A stretch of 64,000 nucleotides of DNA from Amphirosellinia nigrospora (lineage: Eukaryota > Ascomycota > Sordariomycetes > Xylariales > Xylariaceae). The position numbers and the translations under genes were made by a program. The notes under the pieces were generated by a model. That model made no database searches, was not told the DNA's origin, and worked only from the letters and a program-made list of their open reading frames with translations. The stretch lies in NCBI GenBank assembly GCA_004123355.1, contig SCHM01000002.1, forward strand, positions 806,001 to 870,000, given 5' to 3'. Of this stretch, positions 2,447-5,612 are shown in pieces (the first letter of the stretch is position 1; each line of letters starts with the position of its first letter).

Positions 2447-2654
2447 CTTGTTCCATGATCATGATGCAAAAATAGCCGATCGCAGTAGGTGGACCAGCCC
2501 ACCGAACGATGCCGCTTCAAGCAAGCCAAACGTTCCAGAATCCTAAAAATTGCTTCTTCATTCCTCTTATTACTGTTCTAGCTCGTGGTTGAGCGATTGC
2601 GCGTCGTATGATGAGGGTGACGATCTCGGAAGTCCCGATTAAGGACAGTGTATA

Positions 2655-2738
2655 CACTAGTTTCCAATCGAAATGTCGCGCCCCACCCACACTTTCTGTG
2701 GTGTGTGTGTCATTTTGGGAAACACATCGACAATAGCA
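2655..2738 (+). repeat. Left terminal inverted repeat
   Basis: It matches the reverse complement of 4131-4216 almost base for base, including CACTAGTTTCCAATCG at the outer end and CAATAGC at the inner end. Differences are a shorter GT run and a few substitutions near the inner end. Confidence 0.95.
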
Positions 2739-2795
2739 TTTTTTTTTGTAAATCAACACAATTAGTATTTAATCATTTAAAAATACGTTTTCTAG

Positions 2796-2925
2796 CTCGG
2801 AATAGCGATTCTTGTATATCTAGAACTTTTATAGCCCTCGAAAACAGCGTTTTTGGTACTTATACCCTCGAAACAGCGTATTTTATGCTAACAGCCTCAA
2901 AACAGCGTTTCTACGCCCTCAGAGC
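2796..2925 (+). repeat. Degenerate subterminal repeats, core AACAGCGTTT
   Basis: CTCGAAAACAGCG starts at 2837, CTCGAAACAGCG at 2867 and CTCAAAACAGCG at 2896, a period of about 30 bp. A weaker copy, CTCGGAATAGCG, lies at 2796. The core resembles the inner edge of the terminal repeat (CAATAGCG followed by T). Subterminal repeats of this kind often bind transposase in DNA transposons; that role here is inference. Confidence 0.6.
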
Positions 2926-2970
2926 CTACGAAGCCCTTGAACACGCGTTTTACGTGCCTTCGTAGCCCTT

Positions 2971-3545
2971 ACAGACCTACGAACACACACGCAGACCTCT
3001 ACAGACCTACGAACACGCGCGCAGACCTACGCAGACCTACGAACACCTACGCAGACTTCTACAGACCTCCGAACACGCGCGCAAACCTACGCAGACCTAC
3101 GCGCACAGAGTGGCAGAGGGTCTGGCGAAGGGGCTGTTGATCTAGCCACATAGGCCTACGCGTACGGGGTGGCAGAGGGTCTGGCGAAGGGTCTGGCGAT
3201 CTAGCCACACAGACCTACGCAGACCTACGCAGACCTACGCAGACCTACGCAGACCTCTACAGACCTACGAACACACACGCAGACCTCTATAGACCTACGA
3301 GTGCCTACGCAGACCTACGCAGACCTACGCGTACAGAGTGGCAGAGGGTCTGGCGAAGGGTCTGGCGATCTAGCTACACAGACCTACGCAGACCTACGCA
3401 GACCTCTACAGACCTACGAACACACACGCAGACCTCTACAGACCTACGAGTGCCTACGCAGACCTACGTAGACCTACGAAGACCTACGCAGACCTCTACA
3501 GACCTACGAACACACGCGGAGACCTCTACAGACCTACGCGTACGA
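2971..3545 (+). repeat. Left internal array of 10-bp units, core GCAGACCTAC
   Basis: Runs of ACGCAGACCT alternate with variant units such as ACAGACCTACGAACAC. A longer composite block containing GTGGCAGAGGGTCTGGCG and GATCTAGCCACA recurs about three times (near 3110, 3165 and 3338). Open reading through this region gives only RPTNTRADL-like low-complexity peptides, which I do not call as protein. Confidence 0.9.
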
Positions 3546-3554
3546 GGCTGTCAA

Positions 3555-3639
3555 CCTAGCCCCGCGTAAACCCCGCGCACGGGCCAATACGCACAGACCA
3601 GTCCTTTTTTAGTACGCATAGGGTCTACGCGGGGCTAGG
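3555..3639. repeat. Central inverted repeat of the fold-back element
   Basis: CCTAGCCCCGCGTA at 3555-3568 is the exact reverse complement of TACGCGGGGCTAGG at 3626-3639, with a 57-bp loop between. It marks the point where the flanking array switches orientation. Confidence 0.9.
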
Positions 3640-3967
3640 TCTGCGTAGGCGCTCGTAGGTCTGCGTAGGTCTACGTAGGTCTGCGCGCGTGTTCGGAGGT
3701 CTATAGAGGTCTGCGCGCGTGTTCGGAGGTCTGTAGAGGTCTGCGCGTATGTTCGTAGGTCTGTAGAGGTCTGCGTAGGTCTGCGTAGGTCTGTGTGGCT
3801 AGACCGCCAGACCCTTCGCCAGACCTTCTGCCACTCTGTACGCGTAGGTCTGCGTAGGTTTGCGTGGGCGCTCGTAGGTCTATAGAAGTTTGCGTAGGTG
3901 TTCGTAGGTCTACGTAGGTCTGCGCGCGTGTTCGTAGGTCTGTAGAGGTCTGCGCGTATGTTCGTAA
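3638..3967 (-). repeat. Right internal array, same unit in reverse orientation
   Basis: The unit here reads GTAGGTCTGC on the plus strand, the reverse complement of the left array. The composite block reappears inverted at about 3789-3845 (TGTGGCTAGACCGCCAGACC and following). The array is shorter than its partner, so the arms are not perfectly matched in length. Confidence 0.9.
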
Positions 3968-4130
3968 GTTTATATATATACGTTTAAAATAACGTAATAT
4001 AGTAATTTATTCTTCGAATATAATATATATAAAATAAAACTTATTTCTTTAAATAGGTAGTAAAAAGAGCTTTATTTTAATATATTATATTTGTTTTTAG
4101 GATTATTATTTGTTCAATAATGTTAAAAAA

Positions 4131-4216
4131 CGCTATTGTCGTTATGTTTCCTAAAATGACACACACACACCACAGAAAGTGTGGGTGGGGCGCGACATTT
4201 CGATTGGAAACTAGTG
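4131..4216 (-). repeat. Right terminal inverted repeat
   Basis: It is the reverse complement of the left terminal repeat. The outer end is GGAAACTAGTG, followed by the TA duplication. Confidence 0.95.
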
Positions 4217-4218
4217 TA

Positions 4219-5612
4219 ATAATGGGCACTGTGGGGTGCTTTACTCTACAGGTTTATTTTTATCCCATTTATGATTAAGGCAGCTAAGGTTAGTACTGTT
4301 CCCGCTCCGCATCGTGAATTCCTTTTAGGCCTATGCTTTTTGCCCTTCAGAGTTAGCGACGACATTGGTAAGGCAACGAAGATTGTTTGCATTATACCAC
4401 TGAATTTAGCTTCGGTTTTGCCAGGTTTGTTTACAAGTGCGTGGAACAATGAGTCTGCGGTATTACGCCGAGCCGGGCGTTGTTGGTGCTGAGACTGAGA
4501 CCTTTCTACATGCCGGCAGGCAAGGGAAGGGAGCTGGCAAGTTTGCCAAGCTACTAACAATCAATCATCTACATAGTGGACTGAAACGTCTTCGAGCTGA
4601 GAAGAACACCAATATAGTAGTAGAGCTACCATCTCAATACGTGTAAAATTGAATCCCTCGTTCCGCTTGTCAGACTGCTAACATTCCATCGTGTCATTTT
4701 CGCCCAGGCTAGGAACCGAATCGGCTCCGAGTCAGCCGCTTTTCGCTGAGGCGAACAGCTGAGAGGTCAGCCGGCCAGTCATGGAATTGGATGGATATGA
4801 TCCGTAATAGCCTCTCGATTGATACCAACATGTCCGGGTCAATATCCGCTTACACAAGGTGTTCCTTAGCTTGTCGTAGCTTACGGTGAAGCACCAACGC
4901 CTAACCGCTTTTCTTGAGTGCGGGGAATCTGGGAGGAATAGACGCCATAAGAGCGAGCCTTGAAGAACATACACATACACACGCGGTCGGGCATGTTGGC
5001 CGACGTCGCCATACCCACCATTGGCTGCGATGGACCAGGGGTTGCGCATCATGGCCAGGATCAGTCGGCGCTTGCGCCTTTCAGTCGCATCCCTTCTACG
5101 CCGCTGTCACCTTTTTATAGCCAACCAACATTTGGCCCACTCCCACGGCTTCGCTGTATACATCTCTCAAGTTCTTAATCCCCCATGTTTTTGTCTCAGT
5201 ACTCGAAGCCAGCCCAATCCCAGGCGGCGTTCCCAATATTTCCTTCCTTTTTTCTACTAGATGCTCTCTGCTCCTCACACCCACGGTTTGCATTAGCGCT
5301 ATCCCCCCAAGCGCTCGACTCACTTAAGACTTGCTCTCCCCTCGTTATTCATCGTCACATCGCTCATCGTCTGAATAATATTATATACCCACCTCCTCCT
5401 TTTACCAACGGTTGTTCGTTCCTGCCTTACTATAATTGCGTTTTCGCCTTGAGTCCCCGGTCTTAGTTGGCTGGGAGCTTACTTGGGTCTTGGTCCGTTT
5501 GGTGGTACGGAATAGGCGGATTCTCAAACTATACCAGCGTTCTATACGCAAATCGACCCCCGATTGTCTTTTAGCCCGTCAATACTCACAAGGTGGTTAC
5601 CAAATCGGCAAC
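4219..5612. other. Intergenic and 5' leader region
   Basis: No convincing gene. Short open frames on both strands lack family resemblance. Pyrimidine-rich tracts at about 5190-5420 look like the leader and promoter of the downstream gene, and a TTATATA lies near 5381. Confidence 0.4.

Follow-up and report, generated by a model that had tools for sequence, protein, structure and literature searches.

Near the left edge of the window – the 64,000 nucleotides of DNA analysed here – lies a 1.56-kb segment, W, whose interior consists largely of short tandem units running in one direction to the left, and in the opposite direction to the right, of a small inverted repeat. What kind of entity is this, and what, if anything, do its arrays do? 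To the first question we offer an answer that, taken as a full account, we consider probable: W is a non-autonomous transposon of the IS630/Tc1/mariner type, with a fold-back architecture, that is moved by the transposase of longer relatives. The genome searched was the window's own assembly (48.1 Mb in 11 contigs). Some of the ten window open frames that were scanned match eukaryotic domains (MUG190-type and Sec16, for example), which fits a fungus.

An element of opposed arrays

The sequence-only reading of this locus proposed a TA-flanked element of 1.56 kb with 85-bp terminal inverted repeats, and in this it was right: W occupies positions 2655-4216 with ends that are exact to the base and TA on both sides, and its terminal repeats, which start CACTAGTTTCC, are ~86 bp long and 93% identical (right versus left, over 88 alignment columns). 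Between them stand two opposed arrays of CAGACCTACG (Table 1). Together with the 59-bp motifs the array arms make up 908 of the 1388 bp of the interior, about two thirds, rather than almost all of it as had been claimed; the rest includes the left subterminal region and an AT-rich region on the right. The inverted repeat at the centre, earlier given as 14 bp, is 15 bp in length. Every open frame within W is shorter than 250 aa. Just outside it ACAGTG (window 2645-2650) and CACTGT (4227-4232) form a short inverted match, possibly by chance.

Table 1. Parts of W, in window coordinates.
Feature	Position	Strand	Evidence
TA, left end, presumed copy of the target site	2653..2654	.	TA on both sides in 13/13 complete elements, unrelated flanks
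Left terminal inverted repeat, starts CACTAGTTTCC	2655..2740	+	106-base query beginning with the repeat: at least 40 genome matches
Left subterminal region, ~29-bp repeats, common to the transposase-bearing element L035	2741..2969	+	TRF row 2829-2910, period 29
Left array, outer block (CAGACCTACG, 30/60-bp higher order)	2970..3102	+	TRF, AGACCT spacing
Two 59-bp motif copies (with GTGGCAGAGGGTCTGGCGAAGGG and GATCTAGCCACA)	3103..3209	+	TRF row 3092-3220, period 59, 2.2 copies
Left array, middle block	3210..3329	+	TRF, AGACCT spacing
Third 59-bp motif copy	3330..3377	+	Motif query versus element positions 659-735, 91%
Left array, inner block	3378..3538	+	TRF, AGACCT spacing
Conserved centre with 15-bp inverted repeat 3554-3568 / 3626-3640	3539..3640	.	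Centre query matches; both orientations among copies
Right array, inner block, inverted relative to 3378-3538	3636..3795	-	TRF, arm alignment, site spacing
Inverted 59-bp motif copy	3796..3845	-	Motif query versus element positions 1205-1129, 90%
Right array, outer block	3846..3974	-	TRF, arm alignment, site spacing
AT-rich right subterminal region	3975..4128	+	All 8 remaining complete array copies have it (79-98% identity)
Right terminal inverted repeat	4129..4216	-	93% to left repeat, 88 columns
TA, right end	4217..4218	.	TA on both sides in 13/13 complete elements

That the arrays are opposed and built on a unit of ~10 bp, also part of the earlier reading, is borne out in four ways. TRF returns periods of 10, 30 and 59/60 bp at 2970-3538 and 3636-3966. 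AGACCT occurs 31 times in W and AGGTCT 18 times, at spacings of 10, 20 or 30 bp inside blocks and 59 or 118 bp across them (one of the 31 AGACCT sits 291 bp off, in the opposite arm). In the left arm the autocorrelation (lags 2-129) peaks at lag 30, with 0.656, and is next best at lag 10, with 0.621; the highest value in 500 base shuffles is 0.388. Finally, the arms align as collinear inverted repeats (3218-3536 with 3636-3954) of 319 nt, 83% complementary. Folded in silico as a single DNA strand, 3218-3954 is predicted to reach -341 kcal/mol, compared with -137 +/- 5 for 20 shuffles (z -39); the inverted arms and this predicted fold bear out the description of W as a fold-back element.

One argument once attached to the periodicity is weak. 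A unit of about one helical turn had been thought to place sequence features on the same face of the helix. The DNA helix makes a turn in ~10.5 bp and the spacing within arrays is 10.0 bp, so that sites drift round the helix within a block; each 59-bp motif, moreover, moves the array register by 1 bp. In-register spacing is equally expected from slippage or unequal exchange.

Copies and insertion sites

Dispersal between TA dinucleotides had been anticipated, and is evident. The 106-base end query has at least 40 matches in the genome (40 of 46 candidates scored), and W is thus not a single-copy curiosity; the outcome that would have refuted the earlier reading, a lone copy whose ends have no relatives, is not what the genome shows. 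A query of the centre (3538-3640) gives 16 matches at no fewer than 15 places, at 83-100% identity, with the whole query present at 10 of the 15 and part of it at the rest. Nine of these places fall in complete array copies (W, L031, L032, L033, L034, L037, L040, L044 and L047), which lie at unrelated sites on four contigs and range from 875 to 1908 bp. Array lengths vary, as had been expected, the differences being often, not always, multiples of 10 bp. The GC content of these nine copies is 45-52%; repeat-borne open frames of ~95-175 aa occur in L032, L037 and L044, and L037, the single complete array copy searched for a transposase match, has none. Four further elements with W-type ends are long (L035, L036, L041 and L050; 4364-5155 bp).

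All 13 of these elements – the count covers those with both ends in the fetched stretches, one-ended or damaged end matches being left out – have TA on both sides, and none shows a 3-bp duplication. Their 300-base flanks bear no likeness to each other. An empty site for W was sought in its own genome and none was found, each flank matching only itself; TA may have been duplicated when W inserted.

These copies bear on two other readings of the locus. Short tandem units are prone to assembly error, and W might be supposed to be a local minisatellite, or a misassembly of one. A layout common to nine complete copies at unrelated sites on four contigs cannot be explained in this way, and rules the proposal out as having next to no probability; the exact number of units in W is open to assembly error. 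The other reading has W as a CACTA (En/Spm) element. Subterminal repeats are typical of that superfamily, and most of the element ends examined begin CACTA. Both target site and transposase contradict the assignment – TA flanks throughout, a 3-bp duplication nowhere, and a partner that encodes DDE_3/HTH_23 – and we give it virtually no credence.

Long relatives and the transposase

A central issue is what moves W. An autonomous partner with a DDE transposase had been predicted, and the prediction stands in part. L035 (C9:118020-122383) has the same ends, 95% and 91% identical to the left end of W, and shares its left subterminal region (83% over 142 nt and 78% over 127 nt). Two of its frames, which overlap, match the Pfam model DDE_3 above cut-off (1.6e-7 and 2.6e-19), and HTH_23 is likewise matched above cut-off (2.1e-7); the match to the IS630 family model, at 3.3e-18, is below that model's cut-off. 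Autonomy is the part in doubt: with DDE_3 split between the two frames, and NPIG standing where a third acidic residue would be expected, this copy is probably no longer functional. L035 thus has G at the third acidic position, and most of the AT-rich copies that could be aligned have K there. No THAP match was found at E 0.01 in nine L035 frames, and one transposase frame had no match at E 0.1 among solved structures. Compared with viral contigs, the L035-type transposase gave five pattern matches, two of which are weak partial relatives (36-37%); the exact 21-mer of the array was absent from such contigs.

No intact transposase was seen among the long relatives or the 20 transposase matches in the genome. 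Five of these matches, on C9, contain two TAA and one TAG in all. The other 15, off C9, hold 241 stops with overlapping matches counted (54 TAG, 185 TAA and 2 TGA). On C9, a contig of 1.33 Mb, the five matches with few or no stops lie at 118450, 532460-532736 and 661063-661672. L058 and L039 are without much of the transposase gene (the missing part is ~1108-1550 of the L035 element), and it may be that a deleted form has been spreading in its own right on C9. Two more stretches, both with stops, match DDE_3 above the Pfam cut-off, at C1:10914201-10914422 and C7:77841-78086; the former has NPIE and is 33% identical to the L035 frame, which marks it as another family.

L036, L041 and L050 are AT-rich wrecks (GC 18-19%). 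Their composition, together with the stop-rich transposase matches, resembles the outcome of repeat-induced point mutation (RIP). Among the array copies a light effect of similar kind appears to be visible in two only. The 15 substitutions between W and L031 are all transitions, and among substitutions present in one of five close copies C-to-T changes number 3 of 4 in W, 8 of 8 in L031, 8 of 17 in L032 and 5 of 21 in L034; L033 has no such substitution.

The long relatives have repeats of their own. On the transposase side of L036 (482-1253) are subterminal arrays with periods of 29, 59 and 117, close to the 59/118-bp spacing in W, and L050 (4461-4888) has subterminal arrays on that side with periods of about 29, 50 and 99 bp. 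The AT-rich right region of W has no match at E 1e-5 in any of the four long elements; at E 1e-4 there are only short AT-rich matches, in the AT-rich long copies. The second half of L035 (L035:1744-4420, that is, C9:119463-122139) has open frames on both strands, the longest two (221 and 192 aa) on the minus strand. None of the seven frames taken from it matches Pfam at E 0.01, and part of it is 85% alike in L058 and ~65% alike in the AT-rich L036; it may be an accessory second gene.

Class and mode of movement

Terminal inverted repeats, and a DDE_3-type transposase in the relative L035, are features of the IS630/Tc1/mariner group; long inverted arms composed largely of direct repeats, and a predicted single-strand fold-back, are those of fold-back elements. 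With MITEs W has in common inverted ends, non-autonomy and the lack of a transposase gene: it has no frame as long as 250 aa, and its array segments are without a match in L035. A MITE is expected to be a few hundred bp in length and high in copy number, whereas the complete array copies are 875-1908 bp and the centre is found at 15 or more places. Membership of the P superfamily, to which Galileo belongs, was considered and rejected, given a DDE_3/HTH_23 partner and the nine L035 frames without a THAP match.

How might such an element move? A transposase from the longer relatives would recognise the ~86-bp ends, and perhaps the subterminal repeats too, excise W and insert it at TA, acting in trans. 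In an ancestor common to the array copies, short repeats may have been duplicated as a block, in inverted orientation, around a centre of ~100 bp; later, slippage or unequal exchange would have lengthened and shortened the blocks, partly by whole units, and in some lineages the centre would have been flipped by recombination between the arms. By analogy with Galileo, the arrays themselves may have grown from subterminal repeats, possibly protein-binding sites. In this regard an alignment of the 30-bp unit to the subterminal repeat of L035, through ACAGACCTACGAACACGCG-type sequence, scores 26, a value reached by 17 of 2000 shuffles of the unit (maximum 33), and two of 13 interior control segments score 22. 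CAGACCT is absent from the L035 element, in which AGACC/GGTCT occurs nine times. The likeness is suggestive, lending modest support to derivation of the array unit from the L035 subterminal repeat.

How the interior has changed

Five close copies, 94.3-98.9% identical pairwise, differ by 45 gaps of at least 5 nt, of which 18 are exact multiples of 10 and 26 fall within one base of such a multiple, while 19 are further off (22, 53, 56, 138, 143, 233, 306 and 366, for example); the pairs behind these counts are not independent and alignment within arrays is ambiguous. Change by whole units seems likely, alongside changes of other kinds. L033 and L034 also have single-base indels within their array units.

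Identity between the two arms of W is 88.4%. Compared with L031, its right arm is 99.6% and its left arm 95.4% identical, and since like arms resemble each other more closely than do the two arms of W, the palindrome predates the split between these copies. Across the nine complete copies own-arm identity spans 79.6-94.4%, the upper value being that of L033. In L037 the arms are 90.7% alike, as against 79.2% and 86.0% to the corresponding arms of W. This departs from what independent descent would lead one to expect and hints that the arms of L037 have exchanged sequence.

The central ~100 bp is found in both orientations. Among 11 copies with the centre and an AT-rich part, it stands as in W relative to the AT-rich side in seven (W, L031, L032, L033, L034, L037 and L076) and reversed in four (L040, L044, L047 and L072); the count leaves out L077 (which has the centre and no AT-rich match), L048, L053 and C5:6348475. 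L040 and L047 each contain, in addition, a short stretch of centre sequence that points the opposite way (35 nt in the former, 20 nt in the latter). Recombination between inverted arms would be the simplest cause of the two orientations, judged from end states only.

The same unit in a second type of element

Array queries have 57 matches in the genome, some of them outside complete copies, and nine such stretches were read. Three (L072, L076 and L077) are damaged members of the W family. In the other six (L073, L074, L075, L078, L079 and L080) CAGACC(T) is clustered at irregular spacings (10, 14, 16 and 18 bp, and others), and the sequence flanking these stretches recurs ~1 kb apart. Two fuller stretches have direct repeats ~1.0 kb apart around a short interior, of 273 bp in L087 and 226 bp in L088. 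By their direct terminal repeats these ~1-kb elements appear TRIM-like, and of two related kinds. Three such repeats are consecutive on C6 near 5,047,585-5,050,011.

Is this the same unit, or a short site arrived at twice? Genome-wide, the 21-mer of the array with up to three mismatches has 244 occurrences (121 + 123), against 1 for a reversed control. The five TRIM-like stretches tested, out of the six, contain between 20 and 114 of the ten-mers that are repeated in W, against no more than 6 in 200 dinucleotide shuffles of each; L080 has no repeated 10-mer in common with W. Two unit variants, ACGCAGACCT and TCTACAGACC, are repeated both in W and in L073 and L075, which favours common descent of the units over convergence on a short site. 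A host-wide role for CAGACCT was considered; in the window outside W there is no sign of one, with 5 occurrences on both strands and 7.6 expected. Two different types of element thus carry one repeat unit.

What do the arrays do?

One possibility is that the arrays are passive: any short repeats close to the ends of a DNA transposon lengthen by slippage, and they are bound by nothing. The single-base indels in array units, the differences in length between copies, and the lack of any common host site in the window outside W all sit well with such a process, to which we would give almost, if not quite, an even chance. Slippage alone does not predict that clusters of the same unit should occur in a second type of element. 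A possibility we hold more tentatively is that the arrays have amplified a site at which the transposase, or an accessory protein, binds. Many sites would give binding specificity and might help a short element to compete for the enzyme. In Galileo, the tandem repeats at the ends are where binding sites of the transposase THAP domain were identified (PMC3688188), the long relatives L036 and L050 carry their subterminal arrays on the transposase side, and the 30-bp unit aligns with a subterminal repeat of L035. That alignment is weak when set against shuffles, and L035 is without CAGACCT.

Two further proposals deserve consideration. If the arms were transcribed by read-through, the resulting long hairpin could give double-stranded RNA and hence small RNAs, as the very stable fold predicted with DNA parameters would allow; the arrays are unmatched in the four complete long relatives, so array small RNAs would miss those elements, and we judge this role quite unlikely. 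More speculative than the binding-site reading, and doubtful, is the idea of CAGACCTACG as a portable module on which a protein of the host or of a transposon would dock, and which different mobile elements of this genome would have acquired and multiplied. Were it true, two classes of parasite would be using a common cis-element to exploit a single factor, the element being presented in phased, opposed arrays in the fold-back family and in irregular clusters in the TRIM-like elements.

Comparison with known systems

Elements of comparable design are known from Drosophila. FB elements have inverted repeats composed of short direct repeats with a base unit of ~10 bp; their target duplication is longer and they belong to another superfamily.

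Galileo, of the P superfamily in Drosophila, is described as having long inverted repeats with internal tandem repeats that change in number, its first known copies consisting of long inverted repeats only (PMC3573991). In these respects it is like W. It differs in its P-type transposase and ~210-bp repeats; the unit in the W family is 10 bp, TA flanks the elements and the partner is of DDE_3/HTH_23 type. Tetris (with DAIBAM) of Drosophila virilis is reported as an apparently non-autonomous fold-back element with internal tandem repeats, whose ends are shared with another element, both likely being moved by one autonomous element (PMC4079207). Here, too, the likeness to W extends to architecture, apparent non-autonomy and ends common to a second element; the differences, as far as that description goes, are that the Tetris unit is ~220 bp and found also in kb-size satellite arrays, whereas that of W is 10 bp, and that the genome of W itself contains a relative with a transposase gene.

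Closer in superfamily are miDNA4 of Xenopus tropicalis, a Tc1/mariner-type non-autonomous element with a satellite motif, the available description of which makes no mention of opposed arrays around a centre such as those of W (PMC9659126), and the Tc1/mariner elements of Cochliobolus heterostrophus. The latter have ends of 27-70 bp, TA and a DDE transposase, and MITEs and TRIMs are reported alongside; fold-back arrays of the W kind do not figure in that description (PMC4112212). The open-access literature, represented mostly by titles and abstracts, yields elements with fold-back or tandem-repeat structure from Drosophila and elsewhere and no fungal equivalent, and the fold-back elements with transposase-binding tandem repeats that it contains are Drosophila P-type. 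A DDE_3 (IS630/Tc1/mariner) family with a fold-back design in a fungus-like genome, whose assembly also contains a coding relative, would mean that this architecture has arisen in a further superfamily. That relative also allows the purpose of the arrays to be asked. The part that specialists are likely to find surprising is the 10-bp module common to cut-and-paste and TRIM-like elements.
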